Assembly: GCF_029338255.1 (NCBI RefSeq)
Contig: NZ_CP119787.1
Coordinates: 744,001-808,000, forward strand
DNA: 64,000 nucleotides
Source: Haloarcula halobia
GTDB lineage: Archaea; Halobacteriota; Halobacteria; Halobacteriales; Haloarculaceae
Reading direction: 5' to 3'
Shown here: one piece after another, positions 5,369 through 59,295 of the stretch
Layout of the letters: the number at the start of each line of letters is the position of its first letter
Numbering within the stretch: the stretch's first letter is position 1
The notes under the pieces: model-generated
Told to the model about the DNA's origin: nothing
The model's input: the letters and a program-made list of their open reading frames with translations, nothing else
Databases searched by the model: none
Program-made: the position numbers and the translations under genes

Positions 5369-6108
5369 GCCTCGCCCTCCATCATCAGCCGGTTACACTC
5401 CTTGCTGTCGACGGCGTCGTTCGCGAACTGGCCCACCTTGTGGCCCTGCCTGAAGATGGCGACGTCGTCGATGTTCTCCTCGACCGAGCTGTACCACTGG
5501 CTCGTGATGATCACCGAGCCGGTGTCGGTGAAGTCGTGCAGGATGTCCCAGAGCTGGTTGATCGCCCGCTCCGAGAGCCCCCGGAACGGCTCGTCCAGCA
5601 ACAGGAGCTTCGGATCTGACTCGATCGCTCGACTGACGACGAGGATCCGGCGCTGACCGCCCGAAAGCTCGCTCGCCTTCTTCTCGACGCCGAAGTCGAA
5701 TCCGTACTCGGCGAGCTTTTGCTCTACTTCCTTGCGCATCTCGCCCCCGCGGACGGTCTTTATCGGGCCGTACGAGTTGGCCTTCTCCCGTCCCATGAAG
5801 AAGTTCTCCCAGACGGGCGTGTCGTCGACCAGGGCGAACTCCTCGTAGGTCATCGCGACGCCCGCTCGACGGGCCTCCTGTGGGTTCGCGAAGACGACCT
5901 CCTCGCCGTCGAGGACCACCTCACCCGAGTCGTGCTGGACGAAGCCGTTGAGGATCTTCAACAGCGTGGACTTCCCGGCGCCGTTGTCACCTATCAGCCC
6001 GAGGATCGAGTTGCGCTCCAGGTCGAACGAGATGTCGTCGATAGCCACCACCGGGCCGTAGCTCTTCGAGAGGTTGCGTACCGAAAGGAGCGGGTCGTCT
6101 GCCGACAT
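5365..6108 (-). CDS. Sugar ABC transporter ATPase, Q-loop and H-loop altered
   Basis: 247 residues and colinear with the 4628 product, clearly a paralogue. Walker A GDNGAGKST (40-48), signature LSGGQ (148-152) and Walker B LLLLDEP are intact. The Q-loop residue is Glu89 (MTYEEFALVD against MTYQYMALVD) and the switch His is Gln204 (ITSQWYSS against LVSHDLE). It probably forms an asymmetric heterodimer with the downstream ATPase, contributing structure and one signature motif. Starts 3 nt after the permease stop; tightly translationally coupled. Confidence 0.92.
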   Translation of the reverse strand: MSADDPLLSVRNLSKSYGPVVAIDDISFDLERNSILGLIGDNGAGKSTLLKILNGFVQHDSGEVVLDGEEVVFANPQEARRAGVAMTYEEFALVDDTPVWENFFMGREKANSYGPIKTVRGGEMRKEVEQKLAEYGFDFGVEKKASELSGGQRRILVVSRAIESDPKLLLLDEPFRGLSERAINQLWDILHDFTDTGSVIITSQWYSSVEENIDDVAIFRQGHKVGQFANDAVDSKECNRLMMEGEA

Positions 6109-8678: not shown

Positions 8679-9006
8679 AGCAACAAGAACTGAATATAAT
8701 GAACAACGTCATAAAACTTTGGTAAGGGGCTATCGCGGTGGTTCGGAACGTGAGACCGGCGGTACGCAGCCAGCCATCTCCAGCCTCGCAACGTCGGTTC
8801 GCGGGCCACTGGGCCGTCCTTCGAGAGGGTGGACCGTCCGCCGCGTCGCCCGTTGCCCGTCGCGGGTTGCGCGCCCGCACGTGGCCTGCGGTCCGCTCAC
8901 GATCCCGGGATCCGCTCCGGATGGTGTACCGACAGCGGGCCCCGGTTCGAAACCGCGGGTGGTTCGGACCCGGGCACGACGACTGTGTCGATGTGCCTGC
9001 CGGTAC
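8679..9006. other. Intergenic region
   Basis: Upstream region of the binding-protein gene. AT-rich words (ATATAAT around 8694, CATAAAAC around 8712) near its start are candidate promoter elements for the importer operon. The rest is GC-rich with no supported gene. Confidence 0.45.
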
Positions 9007-10074
9007 CTACGGTTCGACGAGCACCTTCACGTCGTCGTTGTCGCGCTCCAGGAGCGACTCGAACCCGTCGACGACGTCGTCGAGACCGATGCGTCTCGTC
9101 ACGAGGGGGTCCGCCCGCAGCTCACCCCGGTCCAGCATCGAGACCGTCATCTCGAACTCCCGTTTCGACAGCGGCCCGCCGAGGAACGCGTTCGCCCCGC
9201 CGACGGTCCGCTCGACCAGCACCACCTCGTTGGGGTCGAACGATACCGGCTCCTCGTAGATGCCGACGAGCGTGAGGTGGCCGTCGTGTACGGTCGACCG
9301 GAGCGCCTGGTCGTAGGACGGCTCGACGCCGGCGACCTCGAACGCGACCTCGACGCCCGACCCGGTCTCGCTCCGGATCACCTCTACCGGGTCCTCGTCC
9401 GTCGGGTCGATGGGTCGGTCCGCGCCCACCACGGCGCTTCGCTCTCTGCGCTTCCGGTTCGGTTCGGAGACGAATATCTCGCCGGCGCCGGCGGCGCGCG
9501 CGGCCTGGACGATGGCGAGGCCGATGGGGCCGCTCCCGAAGACGGCGACCGAATCGCCGGCGTCCATCGGCGACCGTCTGACGGCGTGGAGACCGACGGT
9601 GAGCGGTTCGACCAACGCCCCTGCCTCGAGCGGGACGCTCGACGGGAGCGCCACGACGTTCCGGGCTGGCACGGTGACCTGTTCCGCGAAGCCACCGCCG
9701 TTCCCGGAGAGTCCGACGAACCCGAGGTGCTCACAGACGTTGTACTTCCCCTCGTCGCAGTATCGACACTCGCCACACGGCAGCATCGGGTTGACGGTGA
9801 CGCGCTGGCCCGCTTCGAGGTCCGAGACGCCGGCCCCGACGTCGCTGACGACGCCGCTCATCTCGTGTCCCAGCCCGACCGGGATGGTCTCGCCGGTGAC
9901 GACGTGGGGCTGTTCGCTGGGCGTGAGTATCGGCCCGGCGGCGTACTCGTGGAGGTCGGTCCCGCAGATACCGGCGGCCTCGACGTCGAGTGTCACCTGT
10001 CCGGGGCCGGTCTCGGGGGCGGCGACCTCCTCGACGCGGATATCCCTGTTGCCGTAGTACTGGGCTGCTCGCAT
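9007..10074 (-). CDS. Zinc-dependent MDR alcohol/polyol dehydrogenase
   Basis: 355 residues. Catalytic zinc residues C37 (GICGTD), H70 and E71 (GHE); structural zinc cysteines C100, C103, C106 and C114; Rossmann motif GSGPIG. The closest family types are sorbitol, threonine and 2,3-butanediol dehydrogenases, which oxidise a secondary alcohol with NAD(P). ATG 10074 is preferred over a TTG 18 nt upstream because an ATTAAG box lies about 26 nt before it. In this island it probably oxidises a sugar, polyol or hydroxy-acid intermediate. Confidence 0.9.
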   Translation of the reverse strand: MRAAQYYGNRDIRVEEVAAPETGPGQVTLDVEAAGICGTDLHEYAAGPILTPSEQPHVVTGETIPVGLGHEMSGVVSDVGAGVSDLEAGQRVTVNPMLPCGECRYCDEGKYNVCEHLGFVGLSGNGGGFAEQVTVPARNVVALPSSVPLEAGALVEPLTVGLHAVRRSPMDAGDSVAVFGSGPIGLAIVQAARAAGAGEIFVSEPNRKRRERSAVVGADRPIDPTDEDPVEVIRSETGSGVEVAFEVAGVEPSYDQALRSTVHDGHLTLVGIYEEPVSFDPNEVVLVERTVGGANAFLGGPLSKREFEMTVSMLDRGELRADPLVTRRIGLDDVVDGFESLLERDNDDVKVLVEP

Positions 10075-10203
10075 AGTCGGTTGAGCGGACAACGCTCACT
10101 TAATCATTTCGGACCGTGGGTAACGGTCACATTCGACGTGGCCGACCCAAGACCGGGCCGGGACCCGACCGCGGCCGGCGACGGCGTGACGGGTCTCTCG
10201 GCG

Positions 10204-10983
10204 CTACTGGACCAGGTACCCACCGTCGATGACGACGGACGACCCGGTCATATACTCCGACGCCTCGGAGGCGAGGAAGACTGCCAGGGGACCGATGTCC
10301 TCGGGTCGTGCCATCTCTTCGAGCAGCATCTCGTCGAACCACGCCTCGGCCATCTCGGGGTCTTCCTCGAGGACCTGATCGATCATCTCCGTCCGGACGT
10401 ACCCCGGGTTGATGTTGTTGACACGGATACCGTGCTCTGCCCACTCGGAGGCGAGCTGGTTCTTGAAGCCCTCCAGCCCGGCCTTCGAGGCGTTGTAGGA
10501 GACCTGTGGCTGCGGGTGGTTCGCCATGAACGCAGAGATGGACGACACGTTGATTATCGACCCGCCGTCGCCGTCGATCATCTCCCGGCCGACGTACTTC
10601 GCGCAGTTGAACGGGCCGGTCAGGTTGATGTCGATGACCCGCTGCCACCCCTCGAGGGTCATCTCCTCGGCCGGCGTGTTCAGCGTCACCCCGGCGTTGT
10701 TGACGAGGACGTCGATGTCTCCGAACTCCTCGACCGTCGCGTCGACGAGCGCCTGGACCTCCTCGACGTCCGTGATGTCGACGGAGATCGCTTCGACCGT
10801 CGCGCCGGTGTCGTCGGCGATCGCTTCGGCGGCCTCCTGTCCGGCCGCTTCGTCGCGGTTCGCGATGACGACGTTCGCACCCGCCTCCGCGAGCGATGTC
10901 GATATCCCGCGGCCGATACCGCGGTTCCCGCCGGTGACGATTGCTGTCTGTCCATCGAGTCGGAATCGATCGAGCACTGCCAT
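10204..10983 (-). CDS. SDR family oxidoreductase
   Basis: 259 residues, classical short-chain dehydrogenase. Cofactor motif TGGNRGIG (17-24), NNAG (95-98), catalytic Ser near 147-148 and Y163-x-x-x-K167 (YNASK). The C-terminus ends SSVVIDGGYLVQ as in gluconate 5-dehydrogenase-like and glucose-dehydrogenase-like SDRs. ATG 10983 is supported by a TTTAGTA box about 26 nt upstream; longer frames to 11067 would add a non-conserved leader. Likely oxidises or reduces a sugar or sugar-acid intermediate. Confidence 0.9.
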   Translation of the reverse strand: MAVLDRFRLDGQTAIVTGGNRGIGRGISTSLAEAGANVVIANRDEAAGQEAAEAIADDTGATVEAISVDITDVEEVQALVDATVEEFGDIDVLVNNAGVTLNTPAEEMTLEGWQRVIDINLTGPFNCAKYVGREMIDGDGGSIINVSSISAFMANHPQPQVSYNASKAGLEGFKNQLASEWAEHGIRVNNINPGYVRTEMIDQVLEEDPEMAEAWFDEMLLEEMARPEDIGPLAVFLASEASEYMTGSSVVIDGGYLVQ

Positions 10984-54469: not shown

Positions 54470-55538
54470 GAGGGTGTCATAGAAGAGTTCTCACACCGTG
54501 ATCACGGTACTTCCTGGATTATCTCCGCGTTCGTAGTTGGTGATTGCGACGACGAGACGAAGACACAACGCGAGAAACACCTGTGCTCGCGCGTGGACAC
54601 GGCCTCGGGCGTGCGTTCGCCCGAGGCCGCAGTCCTTCACTGATTCGTTAGTTCGCTCGACTCCTGTGCGGCGATTGTACGTCTCGTCTAGCGTCGATTG
54701 CTTCAGCCGTACATCCTCGCTGTGTTCGGTGATGCGGTCTTCGACTCTGTACTCGATATCTTTCGGCTCGTCGGTGTTTCGCGCGTTGTACGGGGCGACT
54801 GGCACGACCCCTGCGGCCAGCAGGCGGTCGTGCCAGTCGAGTGTGTCGTAGGCACTGTCACCGACCATCCACATCGGCTTGGCGACGGCGAGCGCGTCAC
54901 ACGTGACGCGCATCGCCGTCTCCTCTGGTGCTTGCTTACTCTCGGTGAACTCTGCTGCAATTGGGATCTTTGCCCCGGTCGAAACGATCGTGCAGCCGTA
55001 TCCGTGGTAGTACTCTTCGGCGGTTGGATCGTAGCACTTCGACGCGTCTTGATCGGCTGGCAACGCCCTGATATCCGTTGAATCGATGCAGTAGGTCAAG
55101 TCGAGCAGGCCGCGGCGGGCGGCCTGCTCGACGAGGTTGTCGAAGACATCGTCAACAACGTGTTCGAGGTCGGTGAGAAAGCGATCGACCGCGTCTCTCG
55201 ACGGCGGTCGATCGAAGCCACAGCTCAACCAGACAACCGTGTTCCGAAGCTCTCGTTCAACGGGACGGATGCCGTAGATATCGTGGTAGTAACAATGGAG
55301 GAACCCACGCATCATCTCTGGTGGTTCGTGCTCTCGTGTTCGCCCCGTCTGCGCCGGGGCGAACACGTCGAACTCTTCGAGAAACTCGAAGGAGAGATGC
55401 TCAAACAGCGCTAACGTCTCGGTCTCCGCGACATTGAAAAACGTCTCTACCGAAGGATCATCTTGCAGGGTCGCTGAGGCCATACCATCTCAGCATTCAC
55501 CCTGCTCTTTGGTGTGGTAATCGTTCTATGACACCCTC
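54470..55538 (-). mobile_element. Complete insertion sequence, IS5/IS4-type DDE
   Basis: 1069 bp bounded by perfect 15-bp inverted repeats GAGGGTGTCATAGAA (54470-54484 and complement 55524-55538) and flanked by an 8-bp direct duplication GGTATGTC (54462-54469, 55539-55546). Encodes one DDE transposase. Intact ends, open frame and perfect duplication indicate recent transposition. Exact IS name not assigned. Confidence 0.95.
54491..55483 (-). CDS. IS transposase (DDE_Tnp_1 type)
   Basis: 330 residues. DDE catalytic region visible: CIDSTDIRALP (first Asp), VGDSAYD (second Asp) and YNRRTGVERTNESVKD, the Y-2x-R-3x-E-6x-K signature with the catalytic Glu. A helical N-terminal region precedes it. 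Fills most of the IS; the start (ATG 55483) lies 41 bp inside the right end. Confidence 0.93.
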   Translation of the reverse strand: MASATLQDDPSVETFFNVAETETLALFEHLSFEFLEEFDVFAPAQTGRTREHEPPEMMRGFLHCYYHDIYGIRPVERELRNTVVWLSCGFDRPPSRDAVDRFLTDLEHVVDDVFDNLVEQAARRGLLDLTYCIDSTDIRALPADQDASKCYDPTAEEYYHGYGCTIVSTGAKIPIAAEFTESKQAPEETAMRVTCDALAVAKPMWMVGDSAYDTLDWHDRLLAAGVVPVAPYNARNTDEPKDIEYRVEDRITEHSEDVRLKQSTLDETYNRRTGVERTNESVKDCGLGRTHARGRVHARAQVFLALCLRLVVAITNYERGDNPGSTVITV

Positions 55539-55600: not shown

Positions 55601-56086
55601 TCAGCAGAGACACTCGTGACGTACTCGACTCCCGTCAACCAGGTCTCGATGCATCTCCGTAGCGAGTTCGTGCATCGCCTCTGCTTGCGCCTCGGTAGCA
55701 ATTCCGAGTCGGTAGTACGTTTTCGTCCGGTTTTGGTTCCACAGTTCGGCTAGTCGCTCCCCAAATGCATCATCATAGAGTCCGACCTCTGCACCTCGCT
55801 TGTAGAGTCTCCGGTGACTGCTGATTACTTCGGAAGCCTCCATTGCGCCGTCGTGGATCAGTCGGAACTGGATTGTCCGCTCGATCGCCACGAATGATGA
55901 CTCAATGACGACCGTATAGTAGCCGTCGTCAAGGAGACGAGACGCAGCTGCCAGAAGTCGACACGCCCGACGTAACTGTACGAGTTCGGCCTCCTCGACA
56001 TCGAGCCCCTCTTCGACGTTCCGGGGCGCTTGCTCGAAGCTACGCTCGGAAGCCTCGAGTGCGTTGACGACGGAGTTATTCTCCAT
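55601..56086 (-). CDS. HEPN-domain protein (partner of MNT)
   Basis: 161 residues, all-helical. Motif R120-T-K-T-Y-Y125 (RX4Y) near the C-terminal third fits the HEPN RNase or toxin-like consensus. It overlaps the nucleotidyltransferase gene by 11 nt, the standard order of MNT-HEPN toxin-antitoxin modules, in which HEPN is the toxin and the MNT protein AMPylates and silences it. ATG 56086 is preferred over a longer frame that runs inside the partner gene. Confidence 0.85.
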   Translation of the reverse strand: MENNSVVNALEASERSFEQAPRNVEEGLDVEEAELVQLRRACRLLAAASRLLDDGYYTVVIESSFVAIERTIQFRLIHDGAMEASEVISSHRRLYKRGAEVGLYDDAFGERLAELWNQNRTKTYYRLGIATEAQAEAMHELATEMHRDLVDGSRVRHECLC

Positions 56087-56744
56087 TCGCGTACACCTCC
56101 CTACGAATATCGGAGAGTTGCTCAGACCGGACAAGTATGAGTCCCTCGTCGAACTGCTGCCGTAGCCTATCGCCGATCCGTTTCGCGCTTTCGGTTGATT
56201 CAACGAGGACTTCGAAGTTGTAGCGGTCACCTACAAACTTCGTTTGCTGGAGAGTGCTCACAATCGACTGGACAGTTCGGCGAGCCTTTGTCTTGTCATC
56301 CTCAACGAAGACGAGAATGTCGATGTCACTCGCGCGATCTGCCGTGCCTCGTGCGACGCTGCCAAAGAGAAGCACACCAACTAAATCATCAACTTCTGCC
56401 TGAACCCTGTCGACAAAGGCTCTGATGGGCTTGTGAAATTCAGACTGGGGGATAGATAAGACTGGATCAGGTTTCGTGAGCCGGTCACGATGGATACTCA
56501 CGTACTGCTTACGGCCTTCTTGCCGCGTTTGGACAGTACCGAGTTGTTTGAGCAGTTTGACGGCCTTTGAGACGGTCGCCTGATTTCCGTCGACCATCTC
56601 AGCCAACTGCCCAATAGTGAATTCGTCATACGGCTCCTCAATCAACCGCGACAGCACGTCTTGCATCGCCTGATACCGAAAGACGCGCTCATCGGGAAAC
56701 GGATACTCCAGAGCGAGTGTTGTCGTCTCTTTCCTATTGGGCAT
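56076..56744 (-). CDS. HTH-MNT nucleotidyltransferase (antitoxin-like)
   Basis: 222 residues. Residues about 20-85: winged helix (FTIGQLAEMVDGNQATVSKAV). Residues about 105-220: minimal nucleotidyltransferase with G128-S129-(10)-D140-x-D142 (GSVARGTADRASDID). Combining DNA-binding and transferase domains suggests it both represses the operon and modifies the HEPN partner. A perfect 15-bp palindrome sits at the predicted transcription start, 4-18 nt before ATG 56744. Confidence 0.88.
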   Translation of the reverse strand: MPNRKETTTLALEYPFPDERVFRYQAMQDVLSRLIEEPYDEFTIGQLAEMVDGNQATVSKAVKLLKQLGTVQTRQEGRKQYVSIHRDRLTKPDPVLSIPQSEFHKPIRAFVDRVQAEVDDLVGVLLFGSVARGTADRASDIDILVFVEDDKTKARRTVQSIVSTLQQTKFVGDRYNFEVLVESTESAKRIGDRLRQQFDEGLILVRSEQLSDIRREVYANGE

Positions 56745-56747
56745 ACT

Positions 56748-56762
56748 ATTCCTATTAGGAAT
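56748..56762. promoter_or_regulatory. Palindromic operator of the MNT-HEPN operon
   Basis: ATTCCTA-T-TAGGAAT, perfect 7-bp arms, overlapping the expected transcription start; a half-site TTCCTATT recurs at 56731-56738 inside the first codons. TATA-like GTATAAAG at 56769-56776. A likely binding site for the winged-helix domain of the nucleotidyltransferase. Confidence 0.65.
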
Positions 56763-56942
56763 GGTTCCGTATAAAGCCTCCTCCCTGAGGCTTAGGTGGA
56801 ACCCTTAGAGACAGACATGAATCGCGTGCAAGATACAGAGGATCAAGTCAGCACGGCGCTCACCTTCATTCCACGCTCTCTCGAACGAATCGGCTGCTCA
56901 CTGCGTGTGCAAACCTCGCAAACGTCAGTCAGTTCTTAGAAC

Positions 56943-57593: not shown

Positions 57594-57841
57594 TTAGAGT
57601 GATCGGTCGATGTTGTGAGAGAGACAGGCAACGACCAGTTCACGAAACTGCTTCCACCAGTGCCGTGAGCGGACGAATGCGCCGTATTTTCGCTTGAGGC
57701 GAGAGTTCACCGTTTCGTTCTGACTGCGCTGACCGTAGAGATCGTCATCCAGCCGAACATTCCACGCCCTGTGAAGTGCCGAGAACTCTCGGTGTTTGAT
57801 AAGCGGACGAAGATTCTCCTCACGGGCTAACGCCCGAATCT
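57594..57841 (-). pseudogene. C-terminal transposase remnant (DDE)
   Basis: A peptide of about 80 residues with QNETVNSRLKRKYGAFVRSR and WKQFRELVVACLSHNID, matching the C-terminal end (E-6x-K region) of an IS5-type transposase unlike the one at 54491. It stops where the ISH6-like inverted repeat begins at 57842-57845. The N-terminal two thirds are not found on the other side of that element. Confidence 0.7.
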
Positions 57842-59295
57842 TTTGGTCGCGTCGCAAAGCGGTCTAGAGTTTGCCTCTGGTGCTCTCAATTGAGAGGTCA
57901 CAGCTCATTGCTGTTTTGGTCGATCGCTGGAGCAGTTCGTCGAGGAACGATTGGTAGTGCTCTGGATCAGCGTACTTCACCAGCCGAAGCTGGAGTATCG
58001 CCTCTAATCCCTCCGTTGTCCAGCGCATCCACTGGTTCTTGCACCGTTTGCTGACCTCCCCCATCAACCGTTCGACGGGGTTCGAGGTCCACGGCACCTC
58101 GAACCCCTCGACAGCCTGATCGGCAAACGTCACGATTGACGGCAGCCACCGCCGAAGATACCCCGCCGCCTTCTCTGACCCGTACTGATCCAACTGCCAC
58201 GCTGTCTTCTCGATACGCTCGGTCGTTCGCGCGATCCGTTCGCGGATCGCCGCGAACTCCTCGTCTGGACGGTGTTTAGCGACCGAGTTCTTCAGATGGA
58301 ACACCTCGTCGATCACCTCCGAGACGATCTCGTTCCGCCGATCCAAGGAGAACACGCCGTCGTCCCAAAGGTTGTAATCAAGCGTCCGACCGACGTGGAC
58401 GAGATCGAGTTGGTGATTACGATTTTCGTCGGTAAATGCCGTGACGATACCCTCATCAGCGTCACTGACGACCGTCGCGTCGTCAGTGACTGCGTCGATG
58501 TCTTCGAGTTCGGCGGCTGTTTCGTCCCAGTCAGCGTTGACCGAGAGATCCAGCAGGGAGCGCGACTCCTCGGCAGTATCTTCGCCGAGCGTGGCCTGGA
58601 CGGAGTGGTACGAGCGGTCGTCGTCTTGACTGTGGCACTTCGTGCCGTCAGGAATAACAGCGTCAGCGTCTGTGTCAGCGACACAGTCTGAAAGGAACTG
58701 CTTGAGCTTGCTGCCGTATTCTCTGGCGCGGCGGTTGATGGTGGTCGGCGACGGCATCTCCGGGAGGATGCCATCGCCGTGGTCAGCAGCATCCCGATAG
58801 CTGAGCGAGGTGGCGAGATCGACGCTTTTGGCGGCGATGTCCTGCTGATAGCGGTTTTGCCCGTCGAAGTCGAGAACGTCTTCGACGGGGCGGAAGTAGC
58901 TGGGTTCGTCGTGGTCAGCGGCGGTATCTTCGACGTAGTGAAGGTCGAAGTCGTGTTCACCGGCGGTTGTGACGGCTGTACGGGTGTCGGTACCAGCTCG
59001 TTGGAAGCGTCGGTCACCGTTGCCAGTAGCGTGTTTCTCACCACAGAGCGCCTCGACGCGGCTCGCGTCGAGGCTCTCGACCAGTCCTTCGAGAAGAACT
59101 GATTCGACGTTCTGGTCGGTGATGAACTCGGCGAGCGTGGCGAGCGGTACCGTTTTGTCCTCGTCGATGCTAATCGTCAACCGCACGTCGATTGTGGCGT
59201 GCATGGGACACCTCTTGGGTGGACACCAGAGGCGTCCCGTTCCTCACGGGAGCCAGTTGCTACTGAACTCTAGAGGACTTTGCGACGCGACCAAA
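57842..59295 (-). mobile_element. ISH6-like insertion sequence
   Basis: About 1450 bp with imperfect terminal inverted repeats (left TTTGGTCGCGTCGCAAAG onward, right complement 59266-59295; about 27 of 30 match). It encodes a single long transposase. Length and one-ORF layout fit the haloarchaeal ISH6 family, which makes 8-bp duplications. No matching duplication is present here (57834-57841 against 59296-59303). Confidence 0.8.
57864..59204 (-). CDS. ISH6-family transposase
   Basis: 446 residues, uninterrupted. Contains DGTKCHSQDDD, VVSDADEGI and the C-terminal WTSNPVERLMGEVSKRCKNQW with a likely catalytic Glu. Domain layout and length match the transposase of ISH6, a family restricted to haloarchaea. 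The gene spans most of the element. Whether it is active is unknown. Confidence 0.85.
   Translation of the reverse strand: MHATIDVRLTISIDEDKTVPLATLAEFITDQNVESVLLEGLVESLDASRVEALCGEKHATGNGDRRFQRAGTDTRTAVTTAGEHDFDLHYVEDTAADHDEPSYFRPVEDVLDFDGQNRYQQDIAAKSVDLATSLSYRDAADHGDGILPEMPSPTTINRRAREYGSKLKQFLSDCVADTDADAVIPDGTKCHSQDDDRSYHSVQATLGEDTAEESRSLLDLSVNADWDETAAELEDIDAVTDDATVVSDADEGIVTAFTDENRNHQLDLVHVGRTLDYNLWDDGVFSLDRRNEIVSEVIDEVFHLKNSVAKHRPDEEFAAIRERIARTTERIEKTAWQLDQYGSEKAAGYLRRWLPSIVTFADQAVEGFEVPWTSNPVERLMGEVSKRCKNQWMRWTTEGLEAILQLRLVKYADPEHYQSFLDELLQRSTKTAMSCDLSIESTRGKL

Follow-up and report, generated by a model that had tools for sequence, protein, structure and literature searches.

A haloarchaeal HEPN-nucleotidyltransferase gene pair in which the nucleotidyltransferase carries a winged helix and a conserved putative operator marks its start

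Two overlapping genes on the minus strand make up the module described here, which lies in a 64,000-nucleotide stretch of Haloarcula halobia DNA (the window, to which all plain coordinates refer). The first gene (56076..56744) encodes a protein of 222 aa in which a winged helix is joined to a minimal nucleotidyltransferase of the MntA kind (NTase), as judged from its open reading frame, a PF01909 match and the predicted structure. The second lies downstream (55601..56086) and encodes a protein of 161 aa that we assign to the HEPN fold from its reading frame, the gene order and the predicted fold. The overlap amounts to 11 nt, with the HEPN ATG (56086-56084) inside the NTase gene. A preliminary description of this DNA had placed both genes, the overlap, a palindrome and a half-site exactly where the sequence and the open reading frames put them, and the module is real and well defined. 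Transposase-like genes are present on both sides of it, at 54491-55483 and 57864-59204 (DDE_Tnp_1/DUF772; UPF0236), together with a transposase fragment at 57594-57857.

The NTase is readily recognized by sequence, matching PF01909 with an E value of 4.3e-10 (40.3 bits, cut-off 21). In its AlphaFold model (mean pLDDT 88.9) the residues from about 100 to 222 align, among the best matches, with MntA/MNT antitoxins (7bxo, Z 12.2, rmsd 2.3 over 109 residues; 8xeo, Z 11.4, rmsd 2.6 over 100 residues), and aminoglycoside nucleotidyltransferases align with the same part. The catalytic GSX10DXD motif, by which the MNT of class I HEPN/MNT pairs is defined, is present at residues 128-142 (GSVARGTADRASDID; 56319..56363, minus strand); among 111 relatives no substitution is seen at G128, D140, D142, R174 or E182, and 110 have S129. 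The NCBIfam model MntA_antitoxin (NF047752) is missed with 31.5 bits against a cut-off of 60. PDC-M05A is matched at 1e-12 across both the winged-helix and the NTase parts, and 45 of 45 NTase members match it at E<=0.001 (best 1e-18), in a library that shows no curated cut-off. The winged helix that the preliminary description had attributed to the NTase itself is borne out by structure: about residues 13-90 (56475..56708, minus strand) match winged-helix chains of the ArsR/MarR/Fur type with Z scores of about 9-10. HTH_metalloreg is matched at 3.4e-9, yet below the family cut-off.

The HEPN assignment could not be made from sequence alone and was dropped on that basis, since library and sequence searches with the window protein gave no significant match; it was resolved through structure prediction. 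Pfam returned E values of 0.08 (HEPN_AbiV) and 0.28, both below the cut-off, and a profile search of the PDB a single row at chance level. PF05168 was missed by the window protein, while 17 of 47 of its relatives match that family at E<=1, the best at 7.5e-4. The AlphaFold model (mean pLDDT 92.4, pTM 0.88) has its best fold match in the HEPN protein 2hsb (Z 15.2, rmsd 2.5, 123 residues), followed by 1wol (Z 12.7, rmsd 2.9, 115 residues); Shewanella HepT (6m6u) aligns with Z 10.1 (rmsd 3.1, 112 residues) and AbiV (9bj6) with Z 9.0 (rmsd 3.7, 112 residues). Helical bundles demand high Z scores, and 2hsb exceeds the warning level of the tool, which is about 13. The rows that rank above unrelated helical bundles in the fold search are mostly HEPN or HEPN-like proteins. 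Four helices are predicted at residues 33-54, 57-78, 106-125 and 132-151, preceded by an extra N-terminal helix at residues 4-18. A HEPN fold, as required of class II HEPN/MNT modules, is thus what the model predicts. The earlier identification of the locus as an MNT-HEPN module holds by fold and gene order, but the HEPN label finds no support in sequence libraries for the window protein.

Upstream of the NTase gene, sequence and clade conservation point to a TATA-box-like element, TTTATA on the minus strand (56770..56775). Conservation was assessed in a clade of NTases with at least 58% identity to that of the window, those outside 220-229 aa being left out of the operator count; both this set and the family-wide one used below are made up of upstreams of at least 100 nt that have an ATG or GTG start. 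Around the TATA-like element, 27-28 of the 29 clade upstreams have T at -29 and -27 and A at -22. Between it and the start codon lies the putative operator O1 (56748..56762), ATTCCTATTAGGAAT, a palindrome of 15 bp which we confirm as a perfect 7+1+7 dyad. Since about four such dyads are expected by chance in 64 kb ((1/4)^7 per position), the palindrome alone is weak evidence, and the case for O1 therefore rests on conservation and not on the palindrome itself. The 13-bp core of O1, TTCCTAATAGGAA, is found exactly in 25 of the 29 distinct clade upstreams, with one mismatch in three and two in one, and its best match starts at -17 in every one of them. Mean column conservation over these upstreams is 0.96 in the operator versus 0.44 in the flank (-70 to -32). 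A scan of the whole 3.48-Mb genome at up to one mismatch finds the core at a single site.

A second copy, the putative operator O2 (CCCAATAGGAA; 56731..56741, minus strand), occupies codons 2-5 of the NTase gene, with its centre 18 bp from that of O1. This half-site, also noted in the preliminary description, is real: its clade consensus CCTAATAGGAA is found with 0-1 mismatch in 20 of 29 upstreams and is carried by rare synonymous codons. Pro2 is encoded by CCT in 21 of 28 cases versus 7% elsewhere in those genes, Asn3 by AAT in 23 of 24 (41% elsewhere), Arg4 by AGG in 15 of 15 (5.5%) and Lys5 by AAA in 23 of 23 (57%); the probabilities computed for this codon bias are too small because the sequences are related.

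Other branches of the family show a comparable arrangement. In 166 family-wide upstreams the best dyad near the start has a mean score of 6.10 versus 4.61 in an upstream control, and a score of at least 8 is reached at the start in 35 of them versus 2 in the control. When 163 NTases of 200-260 aa were clustered at 58%, 16 clusters resulted, six of which have fewer than three members and are not shown. Each of the ten others possesses its own conserved element around the start and its own recognition-helix sequence. Most clusters display clear dyads, for example TCaGA.AGTGTC.GA, GGTCCGTGatACGG and GGACACTc..AgTGT, and in some the dyad is weak, as in the 16-member cluster that includes L082; TCAGACAGTGTCTGA is an example of an element belonging to another NTase cluster. 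It is very improbable that the dyads near the start arose by chance or are mere features of leaderless translation starts. The frequency at which 15-bp dyads are expected at random would allow for it, but not their fixed position, their conservation against diverged flanks, the uniqueness of the core in the genome, the rare codons at O2 and the cluster-specific sequences. Self-repression by the winged-helix NTase, which the preliminary description had implied, is strongly supported by this comparative evidence (operator conservation, uniqueness, codons and clusters), and we regard autorepression as a well-supported prediction.

The NTase clusters were also considered as a means of insulating coexisting modules through differing operators, an idea that we rejected: the two modules belong to different clusters in 54 of 58 within-genome pairs, a proportion nearly equal to that expected by chance, and pairs sharing a cluster number 4 of 58 versus 7.5 expected (P 0.11, NTases under 180 aa left out). 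The locus L134 (2799-5291, G024:C12) contains two modules whose NTases belong to different clusters; they are arranged head to tail within 2.5 kb, and each has an upstream element of its own.

Conserved residues of the HEPN protein were counted in 117 complete sequences, 10 of 127 aligned rows having been dropped as incomplete and frames outside 120-300 aa having been dropped from one of the two sets. The RX4-6H RNase motif is missing, a histidine in that spacing occurring in only 1 of the 117 complete sequences, and so is RX4HXY, the acceptor motif of characterised HepT toxins and a defining feature of class I. Their place is taken by R120-x3-Y124-Y125 (55712..55729, minus strand), in which R120 and Y124 are each kept in 116 of 117 sequences and Y125 in all; Y125 occupies the position of the histidine in the class I RX4HXY motif. 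In addition there is a near-invariant set of cysteines and histidines, with C42, H91, H146 and C161 in 117 of 117 and C159 in 116, the last two cysteines forming a C-terminal C159-x-C161 (55604..55612, minus strand). E62 and E69 are likewise present in all complete sequences. In class I toxins RX4H is described as serving RNase action and the tyrosine of RX4HXY as accepting AMP (PMC7641770). RNase action of the window protein is not predicted by the known rule because it has no RX4-6H motif, and with both motifs missing the RNase/AMPylation mechanism is not simply transferable to it. Going by the order of the helices in the model, R120-Y125 would sit at one end of the bundle, and the opposite end would carry C42, H91, H146 and the CxC tail. 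What sets the module apart most is this Cys/His set in a HEPN protein devoid of the usual catalytic motif. We put forward, as a tentative idea only, that C42, H91, H146 and C159-x-C161 form a metal or thiol site which gates or replaces the RX4-6H centre, so that the toxin would be triggered by the metal or redox state while the NTase would act as enzyme, antitoxin and operator-specific repressor.

Among known systems, the module is nearest to class II HEPN/MNT (PF05168/PF01909), which section 22 of PMC7641770 defines by a missing RX4H and a retained tyrosine, because the window HEPN protein has no RX4H and a conserved tyrosine. The likeness extends to the GSX10DXD motif, which class II keeps, and to archaea, where class II is given as commoner than class I (PMC7641770); the best fold match, 2hsb, is listed under HEPN-T/PF05168 (PMC3710099). 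On the other hand, the window HEPN protein scores below the PF05168 cut-off (11.8 versus 22 bits), and the class II description in section 22 of PMC7641770 mentions neither a Cys/His set nor a winged helix on the NTase. The toxicity tests described in that section are those of class I pairs. With type VII HepT/MntA, the class I system of Shewanella (SO_3166/SO_3165), the module shares an NTase gene in first position, overlapping genes, GSX10DXD and a HEPN partner (PMC7641770, PMC4621449), but its HEPN protein has no RX4HXY and possesses the Cys/His set, the N-terminal helix and the CxC tail.

The PADLOC candidate PDC-M05, an archaeal-enriched pair of NTase and HEPN proposed for defence with an antiviral role given as unconfirmed (PMC12988326), resembles the module in architecture and through the PDC-M05A match. 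However, PDC-M05B does not match the window HEPN protein and matches at most 6 of 47 relatives, weakly (best 3.3e-4). AbiV, a HEPN RNase of a two-component anti-phage system according to the title of PDB entry 9bj6, has the HEPN fold in common with the window protein and provided its best Pfam hint, but the score is below the cut-off, archaeal HEPN structures such as 2hsb fit better and the partner here is an NTase. We would place the module with the class II HEPN/MNT kind, as a haloarchaeal variant with ties to PDC-M05. A literature search, with most subscription papers beyond its reach, returned no paper dealing specifically with MNT-HEPN pairs of haloarchaea.

An MNT-HEPN operon that represses itself is already known from Shewanella, where MntA binds its promoter and represses it (PMC4621449). 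SO_3165 does so without a predicted DNA-binding domain (PMC4621449), in contrast to the window NTase with its winged helix. What is added here is the winged helix fused to the NTase and a set of cluster-specific putative operators. According to an earlier survey, MNT-HEPN pairs are mobile and widespread; its authors assigned the toxin role to MNT and the antitoxin role to HEPN, judged the putative antitoxin unlikely to be a transcription regulator and considered a DNA-binding component in trans possible (PMC2701414). A later one noted that MNT is encoded upstream in nearly all cases and proposed HEPN as the toxin (PMC3710099).

Relatives of the NTase occur in 81 of 146 genomes of the window's family (E<=1e-10) and relatives of the HEPN protein in 76 of 146 (E<=1e-5). 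The HEPN profile matches 214 of 392 genomes of the order and 45 of 392 in a phylum-wide draw, all 45 being its own or of the same genus, family or order, the order membership of the non-matching genomes being mostly unlisted. The 80 named loci found with the NTase as query bear haloarchaeal titles, and NTase relatives are found on 94 plasmid records. A viral origin was rejected, as no NTase relative was found in viral contigs (24 pattern matches, none confirmed); a phage search gave no HEPN match. A more distant type of NTase-HEPN pair is seen at G073:C1:227652-228882, G051:C2 and C4, G097:C21 and G100:C1:235934-237149, in which the NTase match (34-36% identity) ends at about residue 165 and the HEPN protein is 35-39% identical. 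Long frames suggestive of a natural NTase-HEPN fusion (L198, L218 and L227) contain stops and were discarded as artefacts of frame reading.

DNA comparison of 16 loci revealed that most pairs share only the two genes and the core promoter, a unit of about 1.1-1.2 kb (~1.17 kb) where neither gene is damaged; sequence shared beyond this unit, as longer or additional stretches, is found in, for example, L159/L162 and L124/L127. The nearest relative of the window NTase, 99% identical, is that of Halomicroarcula rubra F13 (L121/L153), where the NTase gene and operator are intact and an inserted element (L121 about 8930-10290, G024:C19) interrupts the HEPN gene close to the second codon; we take this element to resemble a TnpB-type transposon. 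HEPN remnants with 82-85% identity to the window protein and no NTase nearby (L131 5791-6100; L132, minus strand, 5498-5762; L133 5991-6228) are traces of lost modules.

Loss of the two genes is one-sided. Of 168 distinct intact NTases (HMM coverage of at least profile positions 45 to 205), 132 are followed by an intact HEPN gene; in 34 cases that gene is either broken (24) or absent (10), and two lie at a contig edge. Conversely, 132 of 135 distinct HEPN frames are accompanied by an intact NTase, one lies at a contig edge and two stand without it. Both of these look decayed: in L151 R120 is replaced by Q and the CxC end is missing, and L152 lacks any ATG/GTG start yielding 80 aa or more. A HEPN gene counted as intact when HMM coverage reached position 155 (NTase-side count) or 140 (HEPN-side count), and frameshifts from sequencing error are indistinguishable from real ones among the broken genes. 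The overall count of 34 versus 2 is biased because the 80 loci were fetched with the NTase as query; in the family set alone, with both proteins as queries (loci up to L152), it is 20 versus 2. All loci counted are related and not independent. Since the HEPN gene is lost and the NTase kept, the gene counts lend indirect support to the NTase as antitoxin and HEPN as toxin.

Nucleotidyltransferases can also be toxins, as MenT and those of the AbiE type are. We nevertheless find it quite unlikely that the roles are reversed here, with the NTase as toxin and HEPN as antitoxin or substrate-binding subunit. Such a reading would agree with the lack of an RNase motif in HEPN, with the strict conservation of the NTase catalytic residues and with the description of HEPN-like bundles as substrate-binding domains of nucleotidyltransferases (PMC3710099); it is at odds with the NTases that persist without an intact HEPN gene, the converse being confined to two decayed-looking frames, and with the DNA-binding domain on the NTase, the usual place for it being the antitoxin. 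It is also unlikely that the pair is no toxin-antitoxin system at all and that a self-regulated NTase/HEPN enzyme modifies a cellular or viral substrate, HEPN being the targeting subunit. The near-invariant Cys/His set, the missing RX4H and the HEPN-less loci which retain NTase and operator (e.g. L002 and L160) would suit such an enzyme, but the tight pairing in 132 loci, the loss of HEPN but not of NTase and the patchy distribution of what is a bare cassette are more in keeping with a selfish or defence module.

The reading we prefer, and consider likely as a whole, is that of a mobile two-gene module of haloarchaea of the toxin-antitoxin type with built-in repression. The arrangement appears to be that of an autoregulated toxin-antitoxin operon, with the presumed antitoxin gene first, an overlap, a predicted DNA-binding domain of its own and a putative operator. 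The winged-helix NTase would be made first and, probably as a dimer, bind the dyad between the TATA box and the start codon, aided by O2 in codons 2-5, thereby blocking its own promoter. By analogy with MntA, it may neutralise HEPN through binding and through AMPylation of a conserved tyrosine, for which Y124 and Y125, adjoining R120, are the likeliest candidates. Should the NTase be lost or outcompeted, the operon would be derepressed and free HEPN would arrest growth, whether through RNA cleavage at a non-canonical centre or through some other activity. DNA binding, dimerisation, AMP transfer and toxicity are all properties that we infer for the module proteins.

Few two-gene modules are as abundant in archaea as MNT-HEPN pairs. 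In a large haloarchaeal branch of them the NTase is fused to a winged helix, and several pairs of operator and recognition helix can be read from the sequence. The analysis also flags a subfamily of HEPN proteins in which a Cys/His set is conserved and no known catalytic motif is present, and both the autoregulation and the antitoxin function of class II-like modules become directly testable. The NTase clusters may moreover offer a natural set of archaeal repressor-operator pairs.
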